Shown here one piece after another: positions 1 through 11,381 of a stretch of DNA of 64,000 nucleotides. Numbering within the stretch: position 1 is the stretch's first letter; the number at the start of each line of letters is the position of its first letter. The stretch comes from Chloroflexota bacterium (GTDB taxonomy: Bacteria; Chloroflexota; JAJPGV01): the NCBI GenBank assembly GCA_021325635.1, contig JAJPGV010000027.1:62001-126000 (forward strand). Reading direction: 5' to 3'. A model generated the notes under the pieces. It saw nothing but the letters and a program-made list of their open reading frames with translations, searched no databases and was not told the DNA's origin. Both the position numbers and the translations under genes were made by a program.

Positions 1-459
1 GGCAAGTGCCACGACCAGCACCCCCATTACGCCGAGCAGCAGGCCGGCCGGCAGCAAGAGCCGGGGACGCGACACGGCGCCAGCCGGCGAATCGAACGGC
101 GATGCGGGCCGAGACGAAACGGTCTGCACTGTCTCTCCGCGCAGGACCTCCGATGGCGACACAGCAGCGGCGGCGGGGAGCGGCCTGGACGCGTAAGGCA
201 GCTCAACGAGCCCGTGCGAGACCGCGATCGCGGCCACCTGAGCCCGGCGGTGCACGTTGAGCTTGGTCAGAATGTGCTTGACGTGCCTGGACACCGTGGC
301 CGGCGTAATGCACAGAGCCTCAGCGATCTCCGGATTGGTGAGGCCCTCGCCCACGAGTCGAGCAACCTCAATCTCGCGGCGAGAAAGCAGCTGCAGCACG
401 CCTGGCGGCAGGCACGATCCTTCCTGGTTAGGCCTGCCCAAGACGGTGCTCAGCGCCAT
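1..459 (-). CDS. LuxR-type HTH regulator with C-terminal transmembrane segment (runs off window edge)
   Basis: Manual translation of the minus strand, not in the ORF track because it is open at the edge: MALSTVLGRPNQEGSCLPPGVLQLLSRREIEVARLVGEGLTNPEIAEALCITPATVSRHVKHILTKLNVHRRAQVAAIAV...RPRLLLPAGLLLGVMGVLVVALA; classic GerE/LuxR HTH. Confidence 0.85.
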   Translation of the reverse strand, partial: MALSTVLGRPNQEGSCLPPGVLQLLSRREIEVARLVGEGLTNPEIAEALCITPATVSRHVKHILTKLNVHRRAQVAAIAVSHGLVELPYASRPLPAAAAVSPSEVLRGETVQTVSSRPASPFDSPAGAVSRPRLLLPAGLLLGVMGVLVVALA

Positions 460-565
460 TTCCCTCCAAGCCCCCACCAACTTCTATCGCAACCTACCAC
501 AATGCCGCCCGTTCGGTCGACATCGTTAGCCGCATCTGGTGGGGCACCGACGTAGGGTGGAAGTC

Positions 566-1951
566 ATGAGATGGCCGTGGCGGCGATCCGCAGCAGGCAG
601 CAACGTCCACGTTCGGGAAGAGGCGGCTTATCCGTCCGGAACCCTGGAGGACTTCTACTGGGGCCGGCCGGTCAGCGGCACCGAAGAGGACTACCTGTGG
701 CGCCGCCTGTCGGACAGCTGGTATCAGAAGGACGTCGTCCCGGCCACGTACCTGGAGCTGCACAACCAGTGCTACGAGGCCTACAACTCCAATCCGCTGG
801 CCAAGCAAGCGATCGAGATCACCACCTCCATGGTCCTGGGCAGCGGGCTCAAGGTTGTGGCCCACAGCCAGCGCGTCCAGAAGATCCTCGACCGCTTCTG
901 GCACGACGCCGACAACCACATGGACCTGCGTGTCTACAGCCTGTGCACCGAGCTAGCGCTGTACGGCGAGCAGTTCGTCCGATTCTTCGTGAACCCCATC
1001 GACGGCGCGGTCAAGATCGGGCAGATCGATCCGTCGACGATCGATGAGATCGAGACGGATCCCAACAACGTCGAGCGGCCGCTGCGGTTCCACCAGCGGC
1101 CCGTCGGTGAACTCACGGGTCGTGACCAGCCGGCAGCGAGCGGCGGGGCGTCCACCGGACCAGCCACCTTCTCGAGCGGCGCCCGATTCCCACAGTCCGG
1201 CACGTCGGACGGCCGCTGGCTCGACGCCGGCGAAGAGGTGGTCCAGTTCGCCATCAACAAGGTCAGCAACGCCAAGCGCGGACAGAGCGACCTGGCCACC
1301 ATGCTCGTCTGGCTGCGGCGGTACAAGGACTGGCTGACCGACCGCGTGCGCCTCAACAAGTACAAGGGCGCATTTCTGTGGGACGTGAAGCTCACCGGCG
1401 CGGACAAGAAAACCATCGACCGCAAACGCAACGAGTACGGCTACCCGCCGCTGCCGGGCAGCGTCATCGTGCACAACGAAGGCGAGGAGTGGGCCGCCAT
1501 CGAGCCCAAAATCGGGGCCGACCAGGTCGAGGCCGATGGCCGGGCCATCAAGATGATGGTGGCCGTCGGCGCCGGGCTGCCGGAGCACTACCTGGCCGAA
1601 GGCGGCAACGTCAACCGCGCGACGGCGGCCGAGATGGGCCTGCCCACACTGAAGCGCTTCGAGCGACGGCAGGACTACTTCGGCTTCATGCTGCGCACCG
1701 TCCTCGACCGCGTGCTGCACGAAGCCGAGCTGGCCGGATTGCTGTCTCCACGAGCGGACCAGCGCTACGACGTCGTCTTTCCGCCCATCGACGTGGACGA
1801 CGGTCGGAACGTAGCCGCCGCCGTGGGACAGCTGGTGCCGGCCCTGCAGGCTGCCAAACAGGAAGGCTGGCTGAGCGACGCCGCCGCCGTGAAGCTGCTG
1901 CACCGCTTCCTGGGAGGGGACGCCTTCGACGCGGCCGAGCAGCAGGGCTGA
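566..1951 (+). CDS. Phage portal protein
   Basis: Portal-like sequence (CYEAYNSNPLAKQAIEITTSMVLGSG...LYGEQFVRFFVNPIDGAVKIGQIDPSTIDEIETDPNN); next to terminase; ATG at 566, upstream GTG at 539 possible. Confidence 0.72.
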   Translation: MRWPWRRSAAGSNVHVREEAAYPSGTLEDFYWGRPVSGTEEDYLWRRLSDSWYQKDVVPATYLELHNQCYEAYNSNPLAKQAIEITTSMVLGSGLKVVAHSQRVQKILDRFWHDADNHMDLRVYSLCTELALYGEQFVRFFVNPIDGAVKIGQIDPSTIDEIETDPNNVERPLRFHQRPVGELTGRDQPAASGGASTGPATFSSGARFPQSGTSDGRWLDAGEEVVQFAINKVSNAKRGQSDLATMLVWLRRYKDWLTDRVRLNKYKGAFLWDVKLTGADKKTIDRKRNEYGYPPLPGSVIVHNEGEEWAAIEPKIGADQVEADGRAIKMMVAVGAGLPEHYLAEGGNVNRATAAEMGLPTLKRFERRQDYFGFMLRTVLDRVLHEAELAGLLSPRADQRYDVVFPPIDVDDGRNVAAAVGQLVPALQAAKQEGWLSDAAAVKLLHRFLGGDAFDAAEQQG

Positions 1952-1952
1952 G

Positions 1953-2336
1953 ATGCCGGGCGAGAGCTACTATCCGCTGACCAGCCCGGAACGGACGAAT
2001 GCTCGGGCCGACCTCACGGCCGAGATCGTGTACGTGCGCGATCTGGTCCGCCAGCTGGCCACCGCTGACTCCAGTGCTGACCCGCCAACGCCGTCCCGCG
2101 GCCTGATCGCGCTGCTCACGCTGCTCGCTCGCATGATTGCGCTGCAGTCCAAGCTCAGCAGCCACGACGAAGAGGACCCCCTGGCCGAGCTGAACGACCT
2201 CGTCCTGCAGCGGCTGCGCGAGGCTCGCCAACGCGCGAGCACCACCACGGCAGGACGCCAAGCTCGGCACGCCCGTGCCGCCAAGAGCCCAGCGAACGCG
2301 AGCCGGGCGGCCAGTCCGCGCGAGCTCGATGGGTGA
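1953..2336 (+). CDS. Hypothetical phage-associated protein (possible small terminase-like)
   Basis: 127-aa ORF packed between portal and terminase; its stop overlaps the terminase ATG (ATGGGTGA). Confidence 0.5.
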   Translation: MPGESYYPLTSPERTNARADLTAEIVYVRDLVRQLATADSSADPPTPSRGLIALLTLLARMIALQSKLSSHDEEDPLAELNDLVLQRLREARQRASTTTAGRQARHARAAKSPANASRAASPRELDG

Positions 2337-3828
2337 AGGCCCAGCCCGACACAATCGACTGAGCGCCCCCGGCTTACGCCGAGCCGCACGCGACGTGGGC
2401 GAATTCTCCGTCGCCCTGGCCGACCGTGCCCTCCGGCCGTATCAGCTCAGCGCGGCGAGGGCCATCGTGGACTCGGTGCTCGGTCGCGAGGGGCGCACGT
2501 TCACGGTGATGATGGGCCGGCAGATGGGCAAGAACGAGCTGTCGGCGCAGATCGAAGCCTACCTCCTGTACGTCTTTCAGCGCGCCGGCGGGACGATGGT
2601 CAAGGCCGCGCCCACCTTCAAGCCGCAATTGGTCACGAGCAAGATGCGGCTGGAGCGGGTGTTGGCGCACCTTCCGCAGCAGGCCCGAAAGCCACTGCAG
2701 TCACGCTTCGGCTACATCATTCAAATGGGCGAGGCCGCCATTCACTTCCTTTCAGCGGAGGAGACGTCCAACGTCGTCGGCGCCACCGCCGACCTGCTGC
2801 TGGAGATCGACGAGGCCCAGGACGTGTCGGAAGACAAGTACCTCAAAGACTTTCGGCCCATGGCCAGCACGGCCAACACCACCACGGTGCTGTATGGCAC
2901 GGCCTGGAGTGACGACACCATGCTGGCCCGCCAGCGCATGGCCAACCTGCGCGACGACCCCGGCGCCCACTTCGAATTCCCCTGGACCGTCCTGGCCGCG
3001 ATCAATCCCGCGTACGGGCAGTTCGTCAGAAGCGAAATCCGCAGGCTGGGTGAGGACCATCCCATCATCAAGACGCAGTACCGGCTGGAGACAGTGGACA
3101 GCGCCGGGCGATTCTTCGGCCCGGAGCAGCTGCAGCTGCTGCAAGGAACACACCCACGCCTGGATTCTCCCGGCACCAGCCTGCAGCCTCTGACGGCTTG
3201 CATCGTGGCCGGCGTGGACGTCGCCGGGGAGGGAGAACGGCTGCCGGACGAGATGGTGCGCTCCTCGCACGTACGCAAGGATTCAACCGTGGTGACCATT
3301 GCCCGCGTCTCGCGGCCGTCCGAGCTCTTGGGCGAGCCACTGGTGGAAATCGTCCAGCACCATTGGTGGACCGGCCGTGACCACTCCACACAGTTCGCGG
3401 CGCTGCTCGAGCTGCTGCGGACACGTTGGGGCTGCTCGCTCGTCTGCGTGGATGCCACCGGCGTTGGCGCCGGCGTAGCCAGCTGGCTGCATCGAGCGAT
3501 GCCCGAGCGAATCGAGGCGGTGCAGTTCACCCGTCCGGCCAAGTCGGCCATGGGCTATGAGCTGCTGGCGGCGGTGAACGCCGGCCGCGTGCGCATGTAC
3601 GCCGACGACGGTTCGAGCGAATGGCGCGAGCTCTGGCAGCAGGCCAGGCTGTGCCGCTATGCCGTGTACCAGAACACGGCCCTGAACTTCTTCGTCGACG
3701 ATAAGGATGGACACGACGACTTCATCGTCAGCCTGGCGTTGTGCGTGCGTGCAGCCGAACAGGCTCAGCCCGAGGCTGCCGGCGGCATCATCCCCGCCCG
3801 CAGGCTGTACGACGACGGGAGGTTTTGA
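2329..3828 (+). CDS. Phage terminase large subunit
   Basis: ATPase motifs VMMGRQMGKNE and LLLEIDEAQDV; nuclease motifs VAGVDVAGEGE, CVDATGVGAGVASWL, DGHDDFIVSLAL. Confidence 0.82.
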   Translation: MGEGPARHNRLSAPGLRRAARDVGEFSVALADRALRPYQLSAARAIVDSVLGREGRTFTVMMGRQMGKNELSAQIEAYLLYVFQRAGGTMVKAAPTFKPQLVTSKMRLERVLAHLPQQARKPLQSRFGYIIQMGEAAIHFLSAEETSNVVGATADLLLEIDEAQDVSEDKYLKDFRPMASTANTTTVLYGTAWSDDTMLARQRMANLRDDPGAHFEFPWTVLAAINPAYGQFVRSEIRRLGEDHPIIKTQYRLETVDSAGRFFGPEQLQLLQGTHPRLDSPGTSLQPLTACIVAGVDVAGEGERLPDEMVRSSHVRKDSTVVTIARVSRPSELLGEPLVEIVQHHWWTGRDHSTQFAALLELLRTRWGCSLVCVDATGVGAGVASWLHRAMPERIEAVQFTRPAKSAMGYELLAAVNAGRVRMYADDGSSEWRELWQQARLCRYAVYQNTALNFFVDDKDGHDDFIVSLALCVRAAEQAQPEAAGGIIPARRLYDDGRF

Positions 3829-3858
3829 GGCAGGGCAGTTTGTGCCGTCAGACATGCC

Positions 3859-3892
3859 AGGAGGCCCGGCGGGACGTCTCGCCGGGCCTCCT
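3859..3892. terminator. Hairpin between convergent genes, likely bidirectional terminator
   Basis: Perfect 13-bp arms AGGAGGCCCGGCG / CGCCGGGCCTCCT, loop GGACGTCT. Confidence 0.65.
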
Positions 3893-3907
3893 GCGCTTGC
3901 GCTCGAT

Positions 3908-4141
3908 TCAGCCTTTTTGACGCGGCTCCAGCGAGAACAGCGGATCACCCTGACCTTCGTGGCCAAAGGGGTACATGGGCACGGGCAACGGCGGCCGGTC
4001 GTCCTCGCTATCAGTGCCTGGGTTGAGCAGCATGGGTCGTTCGTTCAGCAGCGGCTGCGCGCCGCCGATGGTCAGCGGGAAAGCCGTGTTGTCGGCCACC
4101 CCGTTCGAGGGGTGGCTGCCGTCGGGGTTGTGTGCGGACAT
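3908..4141 (-). CDS. Small hypothetical protein of capsid cassette
   Basis: 77-aa ORF downstream of the MCP gene on the same strand. Confidence 0.45.
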   Translation of the reverse strand: MSAHNPDGSHPSNGVADNTAFPLTIGGAQPLLNERPMLLNPGTDSEDDRPPLPVPMYPFGHEGQGDPLFSLEPRQKG

Positions 4142-4174
4142 CGTTTGCTCCTACCTGCGAAGTGCGAGATGTAC

Positions 4175-4288
4175 GAAGTGCCGAGTGCCGAGTGTCGTGT
4201 GCCGAGACGTACGGAGTGCTGAGTGCCGAGTGCCGAGTGCTGAGACGTGCGGAGCTGCGTGTGCCGTGTGCCGTGTGCCGAGTACCAA
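4175..4288. repeat. Heptameric tandem repeat (TGCCGAG) in 38-bp higher-order units
   Basis: Three 38-bp units: 4175-4212, 4213-4250, 4251-4288; the first two are near-identical, each with about four TGCCGAG-type heptads. Confidence 0.85.
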
Positions 4289-4313
4289 GGCCGGGACCGG
4301 GAGATGGCGGGCT

Positions 4314-4357
4314 GGCCCCTGGCCCCCGGCCCCCGGCCCCCGGCCCCCGGCCCCCCC
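4314..4357. repeat. Heptameric tandem repeat (GGCCCCC), G-quadruplex prone on minus strand
   Basis: GGCCCCT + 5x GGCCCCC + CC read directly. Confidence 0.9.
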
Positions 4358-4358
4358 G

Positions 4359-6365
4359 TCAGTCTCCTCCGGAATAGAAGCCGCGGTAGTCGACGACTGC
4401 GCCGCCGTACTCGTGGCGGACCTTGTAGCTGATCGCGTCTTGGGTGAAGTTCAGCCCGAAGAGCGGCTGATCCTGGACCAGCAGCGCGGGGTTGACCTGC
4501 CCGCCGACGAAACCGATCTCGATGGTGTCCACAGTGCGAGGATCGGCCAGCAGGTACCACTCCACAGTGTTCGTCAGCTGCGGCGAGACCACCACCTCGC
4601 AGTAGCCCATCACCGGATTGACGTCGTTCTGGTTCCCACCCGGCAGGCCGCCGGACTTGATGAGCTGCAGAGCGACGAACTCGAGCTCCGGCGGCACTAC
4701 CAGGAACGACGGCTTCAGCCCAATGCGTTTGCCGGCCAGGTTGGTCTGCTCTTTCATGGTCGTGATGCCCAGCGTGAGCCCAGCCGTGGTGAGGGCATCC
4801 ACACGCCGGTTGTGGCCGTGGTTGAACGGCCCGGCAGCGGCGTCGAACAGGTTGTTGCCGTCGTACACGGGCGTGCCGCGACCTCCGGACAGGAAGCCGT
4901 ACACGAATTCGGCCAGGGTGTAGGCAGCCGCGACCGCGAGTTTCTGGGGAATCTGGCGAATGGCCTGCAGATCGTCGTTGACGATCACCTCCCGCGACAC
5001 GGCCACGATGTTGCCGTACTTCTGCGCGCGGTAGGTCGCCCGCATGTCGCTCAGGGAAACCGTGGTGTAGGCGGCGTCCTCGTTCACCACCGGCAGCGAG
5101 CCGAAAGAGGCGAGCCGGATGCGGTCCTGCTGCTTGAAGTCTTTGATCGGCACGATCGAGCAGAACTTCACCCACTCATTGGGCCAGGCTTGGTACTCCT
5201 GCAGCAGCCGTTTGTTCATGGACGTGCCCAGCAGGAAGCTGAACGAATTGGTGGTCGTATCAGCTTCGCGCACCAGCGATCGTTCGAAGTCGGTCGCTCC
5301 GCGGACCTCCGGATCGCCCGTGGCGATGGCGTAGGCCTCGCGAATGCCGCCCAGCCGCGGCACGCCGCCGCGCTCGGACTCGGCCACGTTCACACCAAGC
5401 AGCAGGTCCAGCGCGGTCTGGAAACGGTCGACGTCGGTGCGGCTGGTAATCGACGTCTTCTCCGCTCCCATGCCCGTCACCAGGCCAGCGGCGACGACCG
5501 CGGCCAGGCTGCTCGATTCCTCCTCGATGGCCTCCCGAATGACGTCTTCGCTCGCATCGGTGCCGGCGAAGCGCCGGCGCAGCTTGTCACGGAACGGCTG
5601 CGGCAGCTTGGTCGCGGCCAGCAGCGCTTCCAGCGTGCGCTCGCATTCGGCGATGCGCCGCTCGCGGCGAGCCTCCTCGAGGAATCCGCGAGCTTCCACG
5701 ATGGCGCTCGAGTCAGGAGCTGGCAGGACCGTTTGGTCCTCCTCAGTGATAGTGGTAGCGGGCATGTTGTCCTCCTCTTGCTGGTGCTGAGATGTGGCTG
5801 CTTGTACGCCTGGAAGCGACCCTTCGGACTGCACGATGCGCTCGAACCGCCCGCCGGCCGAGGGACGGGTGACCACGTCGACGGACATGAGCTGGCGAAC
5901 CGCCTGGATCTCCTTGACCGCCACGCTGCCGCGGCGGCCGGGCTTGACGGCGCCCACGAAATCGACCGACAGGCCGATGAAGGGCCGCTCGTCGGCTACG
6001 GCCTCGCCGATCATGGACCACAGCCACTGGGCACTTTCCAGCACCCGCAGGACAGCCTTGATCCGAGCGGGACGGTCGCCCGCGGCCGGCTCGAAGCGCG
6101 GCGAATGGTAGTAGCCCACGATGTCCCGAATGGAGCGCTCGGGGCGGTCCGCCGGTGCAGGGTGATCGGCGAAGGCGCGAGCGCCGTCCAGCAGCGGAGC
6201 AGCCGACTCGAGCAGCCGGTCGGAGTAGAAGTACGCGTTGCGCGAGAGCCCGCCCTGCAGCACCGTGACCTCCACCTCCCGCCGCTCGGGAGAAATGAGC
6301 AGCGCCTCCCGCAGCTCGATCTCGTCGACCACGCCCTGCTCCTCCGCGGCGGCCGTGGCTACCAT
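4359..6365 (-). CDS. Prohead protease-major capsid protein fusion
   Basis: N-terminus with protease-like DHP...RSIRDIVG, FIGLSVDF, MSVDVVTRPSAGG; C-terminus MCP-like (NSFSFLLGTSMNKRLLQEY...KVRHEYGGAVVDYRGFYSGGD). Confidence 0.8.
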   Translation of the reverse strand: MVATAAAEEQGVVDEIELREALLISPERREVEVTVLQGGLSRNAYFYSDRLLESAAPLLDGARAFADHPAPADRPERSIRDIVGYYHSPRFEPAAGDRPARIKAVLRVLESAQWLWSMIGEAVADERPFIGLSVDFVGAVKPGRRGSVAVKEIQAVRQLMSVDVVTRPSAGGRFERIVQSEGSLPGVQAATSQHQQEEDNMPATTITEEDQTVLPAPDSSAIVEARGFLEEARRERRIAECERTLEALLAATKLPQPFRDKLRRRFAGTDASEDVIREAIEEESSSLAAVVAAGLVTGMGAEKTSITSRTDVDRFQTALDLLLGVNVAESERGGVPRLGGIREAYAIATGDPEVRGATDFERSLVREADTTTNSFSFLLGTSMNKRLLQEYQAWPNEWVKFCSIVPIKDFKQQDRIRLASFGSLPVVNEDAAYTTVSLSDMRATYRAQKYGNIVAVSREVIVNDDLQAIRQIPQKLAVAAAYTLAEFVYGFLSGGRGTPVYDGNNLFDAAAGPFNHGHNRRVDALTTAGLTLGITTMKEQTNLAGKRIGLKPSFLVVPPELEFVALQLIKSGGLPGGNQNDVNPVMGYCEVVVSPQLTNTVEWYLLADPRTVDTIEIGFVGGQVNPALLVQDQPLFGLNFTQDAISYKVRHEYGGAVVDYRGFYSGGD

Positions 6366-6649
6366 GAGGCCGCGCCTTCCATCAAGCCGAGATGCCGCTG
6401 CCGAACCGACAGCGGCGCTTCGTAGAGGCGGCGCGGGCTGCGGCTCAGCTCCCGCAGCTCGGCCGCGAGATCCGCCTGGGGCGTGAGCTCTCGATCCTCG
6501 GCCCGTAGGTAGGCCGGCGGGTCATTGGGTGGCGGAGCAAGATACTCCGCCGGGTCGTTCAGCTGTCGCTCTTGCACATCGTTTCCTCCTGCCGCCCACC
6601 TTGCCAGGCAGCGACACCAGACGAGCCACGGCTTGCCGTTACCGGCCAA
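6359..6649 (-). CDS. Hypothetical phage-associated protein
   Basis: 96-aa ORF overlapping the protease-MCP start. Confidence 0.45.
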   Translation of the reverse strand: MAGNGKPWLVWCRCLARWAAGGNDVQERQLNDPAEYLAPPPNDPPAYLRAEDRELTPQADLAAELRELSRSPRRLYEAPLSVRQRHLGLMEGAASW

Positions 6650-6956
6650 TCAGGCTCAGCGCGTGGCTTATGACGGCAGGCAGGATGCCGATCAGCGCGG
6701 CCAGGACGAGCACGGCATTGGACCGAAAGGTGGCCCGGCTCGACCGGCGGTCGTCGCGTTCGGCCTTTTGCCGGCCCTCCTCTTGCTGCTGCCGCAGCGC
6801 TTCGATGCGGGCGAACTGCGCCCGGTCGTCGGCAATGTGGTCCGTCAGGCGATTGAGGGCCAGGTCCATCTTGCCCTCCAACCGCCCCAGGGCCACCAGC
6901 TGGTAGAGGTCGTTGGGCAGGCCGAGGTTGGGAACGTTGGGGCGCTCGTCGATCAT
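6639..6956 (-). CDS. Small protein with coiled-coil-like region and C-terminal TM helix
   Basis: 105 aa; ...RSNAVLVLAALIGILPAVISHALSLIGR at C-terminus. Confidence 0.55.
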   Translation of the reverse strand: MIDERPNVPNLGLPNDLYQLVALGRLEGKMDLALNRLTDHIADDRAQFARIEALRQQQEEGRQKAERDDRRSSRATFRSNAVLVLAALIGILPAVISHALSLIGR

Positions 6957-7142
6957 GAGACCACGCTAGCGGCCAGTCGCACCGGTTGCCCTCGCGCTGC
7001 CCGTGACTCCGGCATGACGCCGGTCACCCGGCCGGGCCGGCGTTGACAGGCACATTCGCAGGAACCGTCCGGTGCATTCGCGCTCTACCGTGGCAGCGGG
7101 GCCGCCCAGAGCGGCTGCCCACACCGGCCTGAGGAGGTCCCG

Positions 7143-7808
7143 ATGTTCTTCGACGAGGGCCAGAACCTGCTGGCGACGCTCGGCGGCAGACGTCTCCTGC
7201 CCATTCCCACACCCGCCGCGCCGGCGCCCGTGCTGGCCGCCGCCACGCTGTCGACGCAAGCGGCATCGAGCGCCGCCGCTTTGGGCCCCGGGCTCGCGGC
7301 CGGAACCTACGGCTACCGCCTGTCGCTGCTGATTGACGACTTCGAGTCCGCGGCGGGGCCGGAATCGACCGTCACCTGGGCCGGGCCTGGACTGGGCGAG
7401 GTGCGCATCACGCTGCCGGTCCTGCCCGCGGGCGCAACCGGCGTCAACATCTACGGCCGGACACAGGGCGCGGAGGTCCTGTTGGTCCGGGCCGCGGTGG
7501 GCCAGCTCGCTCCTTCCACCTTCATCGACCAGGGACAGCCGCTCGCGGGCCAGCAGCCGGTGCCGGCCAATTCGGCCTTCAAGCGCAGCGGCGGACGCAT
7601 TCACCGGCTGCACGTCCCCGGAACGGGCGGCACACCCGGCAACGTGAAGATGATGGACACGGCGGATCCAACCGGAGGCACCGGCATCACCGTGTTCGGA
7701 CCGTCCACCCCGGCGGCGGCCTCCATCACCGACCTTCAGATCCCGTGCCAGGCCGGGATCCTGATCCAATCGCCGGCCGGCATGATCTACGCCGTCACCT
7801 ACAGCTGA
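7143..7808 (+). CDS. Ig/Fn3-like phage structural protein
   Basis: RBS GAGGAGG upstream; beta-sandwich-like YRLSLLIDDFESAAGPES...LPAGATGVNIYGRT. Confidence 0.5.
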   Translation: MFFDEGQNLLATLGGRRLLPIPTPAAPAPVLAAATLSTQAASSAAALGPGLAAGTYGYRLSLLIDDFESAAGPESTVTWAGPGLGEVRITLPVLPAGATGVNIYGRTQGAEVLLVRAAVGQLAPSTFIDQGQPLAGQQPVPANSAFKRSGGRIHRLHVPGTGGTPGNVKMMDTADPTGGTGITVFGPSTPAAASITDLQIPCQAGILIQSPAGMIYAVTYS

Positions 7809-7817
7809 CAGCCGTTT

Positions 7818-8867
7818 ATGGGCGCAATCGTCACCCTGGCGGACATGGAGAACGCGGTCCGGCAGGACCTCAATGACACCGACGCCGCCAGCTACCGCTG
7901 GCCGGCGGCCATCCTCGACCGCTGCATCGCCCGAGCGCTGAAGGAGTACAGCTTTGTCTGGCCTCGGCTGCAGGGCCTGGTCATCCCGGTCACGGCCGGC
8001 GTGCGAACCTACCCACAGCCGGGGCCAACCGCATTGGCGCTTCCGGCCGCGCCGGCGCTCACTGCGCTGCCCGCGGGTGGCTCGCTGCCGGCGGGAACGG
8101 TGTACGTCAGGGTGAGCGCCGGGTCGGGATCGACCGAGACGGCCCCATCCGGCGAGGCCAGCGCCGCGGTGGCCTCCGGCGGCTCGGTGGCCGTCCAAAT
8201 CGGGGCGCTGGCAGGAGCGCAGCACTATCACGTGTACGCGGGCACGTCGCCGGGCGCAGAGATGTGGAATGGCTTCACGCGTCTCACCGGGCCGGGCGCC
8301 TACACCGTGACCGCGCTGGCCCCCATGGTTGCCAATCCCCAGGGCAGCAGCGCGGGGCAGAGCGTGGGCGCGCCGCTCAAGCTGTCCGAGCCGACTGCTT
8401 CGGTGCAGGCGTGGTGGCTCGAAGAGATCGAGTTTCCCGTCGGCTGCTGGCCGCCGAGAAGCGTGCCCTTCGAGGAGCAGGGCGGCCTGTTCGTGCTCGA
8501 CATCAGCCCTTCGCAGATGGCCGATGCGAACACGGCAGTCATGAACGTGATCTACGCCGCGATCCATCAGCTCGACGCATCCGGCTGCACGATTGCCGAT
8601 CAGGACGTCGACGTGGTTGCGCTGGGCGCGTACGGTTACGCCTGCCTGCAGTACGGAACGCCCGCGGCGGACAACTTCCGCGTTCAGGACGGCGAGATGC
8701 GGGACACGCTGGACGACACCATGGTGCCGCGAGCCTGGCTGCAGCTTGGCCGAGACGCGATCGCCCGCTTCCAGGCCAAGCTCGAAGAGATCCGGCAGCG
8801 ACGTGACTACCAATCCGCGGCGATCGTGCAATGGGGAGACGTGCCGCGGCGCTGGGACCGGCTGTAG
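7818..8867 (+). CDS. Phage adaptor/neck-like structural protein with inserted Ig/Fn3-like domain
   Basis: N-terminal ENAVRQDLNDTDAASYRWPAAILDRCIARALKEYSFVWPRLQ typical of phage adaptor proteins; C-terminal part follows the inserted domain. Confidence 0.5.
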   Translation: MGAIVTLADMENAVRQDLNDTDAASYRWPAAILDRCIARALKEYSFVWPRLQGLVIPVTAGVRTYPQPGPTALALPAAPALTALPAGGSLPAGTVYVRVSAGSGSTETAPSGEASAAVASGGSVAVQIGALAGAQHYHVYAGTSPGAEMWNGFTRLTGPGAYTVTALAPMVANPQGSSAGQSVGAPLKLSEPTASVQAWWLEEIEFPVGCWPPRSVPFEEQGGLFVLDISPSQMADANTAVMNVIYAAIHQLDASGCTIADQDVDVVALGAYGYACLQYGTPAADNFRVQDGEMRDTLDDTMVPRAWLQLGRDAIARFQAKLEEIRQRRDYQSAAIVQWGDVPRRWDRL

Positions 8868-8888
8868 CCAGGGGCTGCTGCCGTCTTC

Positions 8889-8910
8889 GGCAAGGTCTCT
8901 TGCCTGTTTT
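8889..8910 (+). terminator. Rho-independent terminator
   Basis: GGCAAG-GTCT-CTTGCC followed by TGTTTT, 21 bp after the stop at 8867. Confidence 0.7.
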
Positions 8911-8986
8911 ACCTATGCGCTGTGCGTGCTTGACGGATGGCGCCCGAGCCTCGATTCGGTACGTTGTTTGCGCACTTGAGACGCAC

Positions 8987-9745
8987 ATGAAGAAGCCTGT
9001 CATCTATCGAACAGCCATCGCCTTAGCCACCCTCTGCCTGCTGGCGACGCCGCCCTTTGCTGCCCAGGCCCAACAAGCCGGAGGCTGCCAGTTCATCCTC
9101 GGCTTCAAGACCCTGCACGACATGGATCCCGGCGACGTGGGCAACTGCATCGACAACCAGGCGTTTGCCGGAAACGGCGACGCTCAGCAGCACACCAGCA
9201 GCGGGTTGATGGCCTGGCGCAAGGCCGACAACTGGACCGCCTTCACCAACGGCTACAGCACCTGGATCAATGGTCCCGGCGGGCTCGTCCACCGCCTGAA
9301 CACACAGCGCTATTCCTGGGAGGCCGACTACGGCGCTCCTAACACCACCAAGATCCTGGACCCCAATGGCCAGAAGCTCACGGTTGCCTTCGAGGCCAAC
9401 CTGGTCCTCAACGGCGCCGTCGAGGCCGACGACGGCAGCGGCCACGTCACGGAGCTGCAGCCCAAAGGACAGTGGGTCAACGTCTACTTCGACGTCCGTA
9501 ACAACCAGACGAAACCTGCCCCGCTCAGCAGCGCCAACATCAGCCTCGGCGACAAGCAGGGCCGCAGCTACGTCAGCCCCTTCGACCTGCGCCAGGTGAC
9601 GGCTATAGGCCAGCAGGAGACCCTGTTCAGCGGGAGCGTCGCCCCGGGCGCGACCGTTATGCTGCGCTTGACGTTCGACGTAGCCAAAGACGCCTCCGGC
9701 GGCGTGCTGCATGTTCCCGGCGGCAACGACGTAGCCGTCCTGTAG
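8987..9745 (+). CDS. Secreted protein with GCQFILGFKTLHD..WRKADNWTAFTNGY-type domain and C-terminal beta domain
   Basis: Signal peptide MKKPVIYRTAIALATLCLLATPPFAAQAQ; the N-terminal motif is familiar from Chloroflexota secreted proteins. Confidence 0.7.
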   Translation: MKKPVIYRTAIALATLCLLATPPFAAQAQQAGGCQFILGFKTLHDMDPGDVGNCIDNQAFAGNGDAQQHTSSGLMAWRKADNWTAFTNGYSTWINGPGGLVHRLNTQRYSWEADYGAPNTTKILDPNGQKLTVAFEANLVLNGAVEADDGSGHVTELQPKGQWVNVYFDVRNNQTKPAPLSSANISLGDKQGRSYVSPFDLRQVTAIGQQETLFSGSVAPGATVMLRLTFDVAKDASGGVLHVPGGNDVAVL

Positions 9746-9868
9746 CCGACCTCCGAGCGCTCTGCCGCTCGGCACAATCAACCACCCTCAACCCCTCCGC
9801 CACCCAATAGTCCCGTCCGCTCGGCCCGGCGCCACCAGGCGCCACGCCGCCCGCTAGGATGCCATACA

Positions 9869-9965
9869 GGACCCTCGGTTGTCTGCCGATAACCAAGAGA
9901 GGGGTCCCAAGGGATCCTCGGAGCGCCTGCGCTCTGGGAGCGCTGGCGGGAAAGGAACGCCGGGC
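9869..9965 (+). promoter_or_regulatory. Candidate structured 5' leader RNA of the IPT gene
   Basis: GGACCCTC-GGTT...AACC-(aaga)-GAGGGGTCC stem, alternative GAGGGGTCCCAAGGGATCCTC hairpin, GAGCGCCTGCGCTC hairpin, and RBS inside a GGCG...CGCC loop. Confidence 0.4.
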
Positions 9966-11381
9966 ATGAGATTGAACCCCAAACGTCTCGCGATCGCGGC
10001 CGCATGTCTGCTGCTTGGATCGGTCCCCGCGGGATCGGCTGCGCAGGGCGTAGCCTCGCCCGCCGTCGAAGCGACTGCCGGAGCCGCCGCGCCGCTGGCG
10101 CTAGTTGGGACGGCGGGCACGAAGGTGACCATCAGCGGCGCTAACTTCGGTACCGGCGGGGCGGTGCGTTTCGGCACCAGCACGATCATCGCGCTCACCT
10201 CCAAGTGCAGCGGCAGCCAGACCGGCTGCATCGTGTCATCGTCCACCTCCTCCATCTCCGTCAAAGCGCCCGCCGGCAGCGGAATGGCGGCGGTGAACGT
10301 CTGCCCGGACACCACCTGCTCCACGGTCGCATCCAACTACGCGCCCCGTCAAACCTTCGACTACAACCCGGCCATCACCGGGCTGAGCACGCACGTCTTC
10401 AGCAAGGCCGGCATGACGCTGACCATCAGTGGCGGGCATTTCGGCACGGCCACGCCGACGATCAACTTCAAGAACGGCTCGACGGTCGTCAGCACGGTCA
10501 ACTCGAAGTGCGCGTCGACCACCACCACCGGCTGCGTCAAGAGCGTGGCCGACAGCTCCATTGTGGTTGCGCCGCCTACCCTCAGCTCCTGCCTGTGCAC
10601 CGTTGAAGTGCAGATTGGCTCGACCGTTGCGGACGACCTGACGAACGCCGCCCTCGGCACGAGCTTCGACTACAACCCGGCCACGACCGGGGTGACCCCG
10701 AATGGCGGCCAGCCGGGCGCGACCATAACCATCAAGGGCACCAACCTGGGCACGTCGACGCCGACGATTCGCTTCGCCAACATCGGCACCAGCAGCGGAA
10801 ACCTCGACGTGAGCGCCAAGTGCTCCAGTGTGGTGAAGACGAACTGCATCGCCGCGGCCACGGCGACGGCCATCTCCGTCAAGGCTCCGACGCCGATCAG
10901 CACGAGCGCTACCCACGCCGTCATCACGGTGTGCCCCGGCGGCAACTGCGCCGCCCCGGCCGACGATCTGACCAGCCTGGCAACAACGCCGCAGGCATCG
11001 AGCTTCGACTACGGCCCGCTCATGACGAGCCTATCCGCGTCCTTTGCGAAGCCGGGCGGCTCGATGACTGTCAAGGGTGTGAATTTTGGCAAGCTGGCCG
11101 GCGTGGAGCTCAACCCCGTTTCGCCGGGAAGTCCAACGTTCCTGTTGCCCTGCACCACCGGCCAAACGAGCGGCTGCGTGGCCGTCAGCGACACGACGAT
11201 TACGGTGAAGCCGCCGTCCAGCCTTTCCGGCCAATTTAATCTTTCCGTCGGAACGGCCCAGCTTTCGGCCACTAGCAGCCTCAGCGCCAGCGTAATCGCC
11301 GCTACTACTCTCAGCGGCGTGGGCACCACCCTGCCGATCGAGTTCACGAGCGGGCCTGTGGTGACCGGCATCTCCTCGTAG
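9966..11381 (+). CDS. Secreted IPT/TIG tandem-repeat protein
   Basis: Signal peptide; four repeats with GTKVTISGANFGT / GMTLTISGGHFGT / GATITIKGTNLGT / GSMTVKGVNFGK and recurring SFDYNPA(I/T)TG. Confidence 0.8.
   Translation: MRLNPKRLAIAAACLLLGSVPAGSAAQGVASPAVEATAGAAAPLALVGTAGTKVTISGANFGTGGAVRFGTSTIIALTSKCSGSQTGCIVSSSTSSISVKAPAGSGMAAVNVCPDTTCSTVASNYAPRQTFDYNPAITGLSTHVFSKAGMTLTISGGHFGTATPTINFKNGSTVVSTVNSKCASTTTTGCVKSVADSSIVVAPPTLSSCLCTVEVQIGSTVADDLTNAALGTSFDYNPATTGVTPNGGQPGATITIKGTNLGTSTPTIRFANIGTSSGNLDVSAKCSSVVKTNCIAAATATAISVKAPTPISTSATHAVITVCPGGNCAAPADDLTSLATTPQASSFDYGPLMTSLSASFAKPGGSMTVKGVNFGKLAGVELNPVSPGSPTFLLPCTTGQTSGCVAVSDTTITVKPPSSLSGQFNLSVGTAQLSATSSLSASVIAATTLSGVGTTLPIEFTSGPVVTGISS

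Follow-up and report, generated by a model that had tools for sequence, protein, structure and literature searches.

How does an intact set of phage head and packaging genes come to lie among the ordinary genes of a Chloroflexota bacterium, and does it still serve a purpose there? The cassette that raises this question spans positions 539-8867 of the window analyzed here, a stretch of 64,000 nucleotides that corresponds to positions 62001-126000 of contig C20 within a 4.64-Mb genome of 63 contigs (G000). The initial annotation, made from the sequence alone, had considered a rearranged or decayed prophage, a satellite, and a domesticated locus resembling those of gene transfer agents (GTAs). 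Our analyses favor the last of these. We consider it probable that the cassette encodes the head and packaging part of a GTA-like element of Chloroflexota, one that is short-tailed, derives from a caudovirus, has been domesticated and passed on vertically, and has its genes dispersed.

Where families exist, the products of the cassette were identified with PHROGs and Pfam HMMs, plus an adaptor HMM built in this analysis, as a portal, a small TerS-like protein, a large terminase (TerL), a fused prohead protease and major capsid protein (MCP), and a neck adaptor. The portal gene (539-1951, plus strand) encodes 470 aa from its first start codon (a start near 557 or 569 is likelier), and its product matched phrog_10963 (1.1e-43) and is 52-65% identical to the portals of several other Chloroflexota families. 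Between portal and TerL, a 127-aa gene (1953-2336, plus strand) directly precedes TerL as family c12 does in relatives; its HMM match to c12 was weak (E 9e-4; six sequences), and it is tentatively proposed as a putative small terminase subunit (TerS). The TerL gene (2275-3828, plus strand; likelier start 2329) matched phrog_5909 (5.7e-9) and Pfam Terminase_6C above its cut-off. Because Pfam TerL_ATPase had no match in the source genome, TerL was traced by a purpose-built alignment; the Walker A motif RQMGKN, the Walker B motif DEAQD and the nuclease acidic residues D315, D393, D481 and D482 (alignment numbering) are conserved across relatives. An 18-nt inverted repeat (3858-3893), which is a probable terminator, lies between the convergent TerL and 77-aa/MCP transcripts.

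The genes that follow are on the minus strand. A 77-aa ORF (3908-4141) downstream of MCP is a gene call of uncertain status, with no HMM match and no relative found. It is separated from MCP by a simple-repeat spacer (4165-4355) of 38-nt and 7-nt tandem units (AGTGCCG; GGCCCCC). The fused prohead protease and HK97-type MCP (4359-6365, 668 aa) matched phrog_29592 (1.4e-89), phrog_4523 or 'major head and protease protein' (6.4e-69), PF25209 (1.1e-47) and phrog_133. Its residues H68, S133 and D163, which we take from knowledge of the family to be the prohead-protease signature, are invariant in a 14-sequence alignment. Just upstream of MCP, a 96-aa gene (6359-6649) occupies the same position as c11/c19 in relatives, a position that possibly points to a role in scaffolding or assembly; its assignment to c11 was rejected on a non-significant HMM score and the gene was kept as position-only. 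The adjacent 105-aa gene (6639-6956) encodes a coiled coil and a C-terminal membrane helix, as judged by eye, and had no specific family match, its HMM score against c9 also being non-significant. This membrane-type protein is possibly holin-like and is a weak lysis candidate.

Two further genes return to the plus strand. The first encodes a 221-aa Ig/Fn3-like protein (7143-7808), a possible capsid decoration with weak matches to phrog_8040 and phrog_19622. The second encodes an SU10-type neck adaptor with an inserted Ig-like domain (7818-8867), which scored just below the curated cut-off of PF24175 (4.3e-5) and matched the purpose-built adaptor HMM at 2.3e-61; its homologues in relatives are 30-45% identical. 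The HMM searches therefore reproduced the strand arrangement first described from the sequence, namely portal and TerL on the plus strand, the fused protease-MCP and two small genes on the minus strand, and the adaptor and the Ig/Fn3-like gene on the plus strand, the match for the last being weak. The inversion of the capsid block, which had been taken to suggest rearrangement, is real but not special to this genome, since Thermogemmatispora and Tengunoibacter likewise have portal and MCP pointing in opposite directions.

The left boundary is formed, as initially annotated, by a gene for a LuxR-type regulator, accompanied by ordinary genes. To the right lies a gene for a secreted protein with DUF4352 (8987-9745), which was rejected as a cassette member because a paralogue lies to the left of the cassette, in host DNA (L001:12657-13724). 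The two secreted paralogues have a common N-terminal domain, are 62% identical over 117 aa and flank the cassette on both sides, each within about 5 kb. Host-type genes stand on either side of 539-8867, and neither replication genes nor a full tail were found within it. No long att-like flanking direct repeats were detected within window positions 1-10000, and a search for tyrosine integrases found none on C20 or on C25, the contig that carries the second locus described below, all 11 matches of the genome being on other contigs. Recognized lysis genes were absent from both loci. The earlier statements on integrase, replication and lysis genes accordingly hold, and the locus has neither a tyrosine integrase with long att repeats nor the replication genes with a full tail that would mark a cryptic or an intact prophage.

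The initial annotation had also described the cassette as devoid of tail genes, which is true of the head locus but not of the genome. Profiles of the genes that adjoin the cassettes of relatives identified a second intact cassette of four neck and tail-tip genes (C25:77417-81325; L161:12417-16325) with ordinary host genes on both sides. They are collinear in the order hub, spike-like c2, c3 and c10, and comprise a baseplate hub (c5; C25:79337-81325, E 2e-134), c2 (E 8e-21), c3 (E 1.1e-22) and c10 (C25:77420-77824, E 9e-39); no further cassette genes were recognized across the 35 kb examined near this block. The hub family corresponds to phrog_1887 (tail) and, weakly, to baseplate hub domains with a BNR beta-propeller-like region. 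AlphaFold models of c10 and c3 (mean pLDDT 79 and 83) were compared by Foldseek. The c10 model resembles baseplate tube-initiator or distal-tail proteins (best E 1.7e-5) and the c3 model resembles, more weakly, stoppers from the necks of lambda, Chi and T1 (best E about 4e-3, probability 1.0). The designation of c2 as spike-like follows from its sequence pattern and position only. No tail tube, sheath or tape-measure gene was recognized at the C20 or C25 locus.

Portal, MCP, TerL, hub and c10 are each present in one copy in the source genome. The tetranucleotide compositions of C20 and C25 correlate at r 0.991, compared with 0.84-0.96 for four other genomes. The assembly of 63 contigs is possibly a MAG (3.95% contamination), and C20 and C25 are therefore without physical linkage. 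Because of the gene set on C25, the matching composition, the lack of tyrosine integrases on either contig, the folds of c10 and c3 and the hub matches, the most plausible reading is that the head set and the tail-tip set complement each other as the two halves of a single short-tailed particle. These results also bear on the idea of a phage satellite, or of a mobile island that forms capsids, which would borrow the genes that it lacks from a helper phage. A compact cassette with no tail genes at the head locus is what such an island would look like, but no integrase, replication, primase or helper-hijack gene was recognizable, the missing tail genes are present in the host genome, and the vertical inheritance and lone single-gene loci reported below also speak against it. 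We consider a satellite very improbable.

The relatives of the source genome in our comparison set belong to the same phylum at closest, and synteny and selection were consequently measured among relatives. The portal profile matched 64 of 400 sampled Chloroflexota genomes, mostly with one copy per genome, and the other 336 had no match. Searches with MCP and portal in 60 relatives agree with this mostly single-copy pattern, and full-length matches of TerL and of the hub occurred once per genome in the set searched, next to a few additional ones that were partial or weak. All 42 GTDB loci with a portal relative carry Chloroflexota-type labels except two from MAGs titled 'Proteobacteria', whose contigs match G003 and G015, both placed in Chloroflexota.

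The arrangement of the genes varies widely within the phylum. In Dictyobacter aurantiacus (L183), the whole set is collinear over about 14.5 kb in the order portal-c3-MCP-c8-c7-c2-c13-hub-c57-c37-adaptor-c15-c10-TerL. On the single contig of T. carboxidivorans (G068), the portal lies at 1.04/1.08 Mb, TerL at 1.49 Mb and the hub at 3.26 Mb, and on one contig of a Ktedonobacter strain the portal, hub and TerL are found at 0.33, 0.64 and 1.18 Mb, respectively. Dispersed genes are nevertheless kept in place. A lone TerL occurs in the same host neighborhood in three Thermogemmatispora species (L164, L170, L172), a lone hub occupies a neighborhood common to two species (L163, L171), and three Ktedonobacter genomes have separate conserved neighborhoods for TerL (L174-L176) and for hub-adaptor-c10 (L178, L179, L181).

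Selection was measured within these genera. When Thermogemmatispora species were compared with one another, and likewise Ktedonobacter species, the dN/dS of most particle genes was about 0.01-0.3, with higher values for c15 and c19 in single comparisons (0.67 and 0.37), and in the same species pairs their dS was similar to that of flanking host genes. The gene trees follow the host. Mantel correlations with RpoB distances, which are raised by the deep structure of the phylum, reached r 0.857 for portal (29 genomes), 0.910 for TerL (21), 0.880 for hub (15) and 0.914 for MCP (14), values attained in 0 of 2000 permutations. Splits in common with the RpoB tree, also raised by this deep structure, numbered 15/25 for portal, 12/17 for TerL, 8/11 for hub and 7/10 for MCP, while label shuffles gave at most 2-4 (portal maximum 3 in 500 shuffles; TerL maximum 2). 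That unlinked particle genes agree with one another and with the host fits co-diversification.

Decay is also evident in some Ktedonobacteria, where portals are split, TerL has a stop in G322 and the hub has stops or splits in G316, G140 and G296; the system is therefore being lost in places. The same structural module also occurs in temperate phages. Four IMG/VR contigs (L102, L107-L109) have the order portal-c3-c11-MCP-c7-c2-c13, followed by the hub in L102 and L107. Integrase genes adjoin the portal in these contigs, and L108 also has a DNA polymerase exonuclease-type gene. They are probably temperate Ktedonobacteria-type phages of the same lineage. Their structural order is similar to that of the chromosomal cassettes examined, which have neither an integrase nor such a polymerase gene. 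Given such integrase-bearing relatives, some loci could be independent captures. The closest sequenced phage, Microcystis phage Mae-JY22 (PP438414), is distant (portal 32% identical; protease-MCP 29% over 95% of the query), and this complete 41-kb phage has, unlike the cassette, an annotated tape-measure-like protein and a Gam homologue.

Could the cassette then be a degenerating prophage remnant, that is, head genes left by chance after the loss and rearrangement of a temperate phage and with no present function? The two separated fragments, the lack of an integrase and of identified lysis genes, the clear decay in some Ktedonobacteria and the existence of temperate phages with the same module would all be expected of a remnant. 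On the other hand, all ORFs of the cassette are intact as initially reported, the catalytic residues of TerL and of the protease are conserved, dN/dS is low in relatives at host-like dS, the genes are kept in place across species and their trees follow the host. The absence of a recognizable integrase, together with the intact ORFs and catalytic residues, also counts against the decayed prophage that had been suggested at first. We regard a remnant as unlikely. The GTA-like reading is preferred because it accounts for the complementary second locus, the mostly single-copy retention in the phylum, the conserved neighborhoods, the purifying selection in relatives and the host-following trees, and an independent domestication in Chloroflexota is part of this best explanation.

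Most known GTAs come from Alphaproteobacteria, with a few other groups also represented. In the literature searched, chiefly open-access, we found no description of a GTA in Chloroflexota, Chloroflexi or Ktedonobacteria. The alphaproteobacterial RcGTA and CcGTA (Rhodogtaviriformidae) have phage-derived head, neck, tail and TerL genes with a long vertical inheritance, and the GTA genes of R. capsulatus are at five loci (PMC9662315, PMC10883770). By gene content and description, the Chloroflexota element is similar in its phage-derived particle and TerL genes, its several loci and its vertical inheritance. It differs in its phylum, in the fusion of protease and MCP, in having no recognized tube or tape-measure gene, in a dispersal that in Chloroflexota goes as far as single genes separated by megabases, and in being known here from genes alone. 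FpGTA of Faecalibacterium is a compact, podovirus-like GTA-like operon of 10.5 kb in a Bacillota host, with the support of packaged reads (PMC12946183). It is comparable, by description, as a compact GTA-like system outside Alphaproteobacteria and differs in host phylum and in the packaged-read data behind it.

Set against the ICTV viriform definition of GTA (PMC9662315), three of six features were found. Particle proteins derive from caudoviricetes (portal, TerL, protease-MCP, adaptor and hub by PHROGs/Pfam; stopper and tube-initiator by fold). The genes are endogenized, often at several loci (two loci on two contigs with no tyrosine integrase, and megabase dispersal in single-contig relatives). 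Inheritance is mostly vertical (Mantel r 0.86-0.91 for four genes, as raised by deep phylum structure, with shared splits and conserved neighborhoods). Since the other three, random packaging of host DNA, head size and DNA delivery, need experiment, we file the element as GTA-like and not as a proven GTA.

In the mechanism that we propose, the head and tail-tip loci would be co-expressed. The protease would mature a head of HK97 fold, into which TerL, possibly assisted by the 127-aa TerS-like protein, would package host DNA by headful. The adaptor and the stopper would connect this head with a stub tail made up of c10, hub and spike, and lysis of the cell would set the particles free to bring DNA to kin. 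With genes dispersed over megabases in relatives, full self-packaging appears implausible. A PBSX-like defective particle, in which a head and short tail package host DNA and kill competitors instead of transferring genes, would have the same gene content, and the BNR beta-propeller-like region of the hub may bind surfaces. However, PBSX is a single collinear locus and nothing in the locus studied here speaks for killing, which makes this alternative quite improbable.

Among Ktedonobacteria, portals are split in G068, G261, G084, G172, G316 and G333 (L126-L136), and halves that share a contig have the same strand and are separated by 20 to 225 kb. The gene of a large serine recombinase abuts the break, at about portal residues 356-362, in three of these genomes (G261, G084 and G172); the three recombinases form one family (phrog_95) and are 69-71% identical to each other's query. 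The portal is therefore the integration site of mobile elements in those Ktedonobacteria, an arrangement that recalls the interrupted genes of sigK-skin and the comK prophages. A bolder reading, possible but held with some doubt, is that of an independent GTA lineage which would predate the divergence of several Chloroflexota classes and whose genes, dispersed to lone chromosomal genes, would still be functional. Its minimal particle would have the neck directly on a hub/spike tip, and the Ktedonobacteria portal would be the attachment site of serine-recombinase elements predicted to switch particles off while integrated and on again if excised.

If the GTA-like reading is true, GTAs would be extended to a soil and hot-spring phylum by a widespread candidate that co-diversifies with its hosts, and the question of what maintains GTAs could be put to a second deep system. 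The candidate is present in Ktedonobacteria that can be cultured, among them Dictyobacter and Thermogemmatispora. It would also suggest a way of finding further GTAs, by looking not for clusters but for head and tail genes that are single-copy, complement one another and lie on different contigs. Our results further suggest a check of whether some IMG/VR contigs of the same type are chromosome rather than virus.

Simple LexA-box-like palindromes were found neither in window positions 1-9000 nor upstream of the LexA-adjacent clusters of relatives. In these relatives, which form one genus-level group (f21/g28), the particle cluster faces a LexA gene (Peptidase_S24 and LexA DNA-binding domains) and a sigma-70-like gene, which lie divergently beside the cluster at L083:4280-5942 and have syntenic, clustered homologues in L084 and L027. 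Such neighbors make an SOS or sigma control of the particle cluster possible. In L028, a protein that clusters with the sigma-70-like one also precedes a particle cluster.
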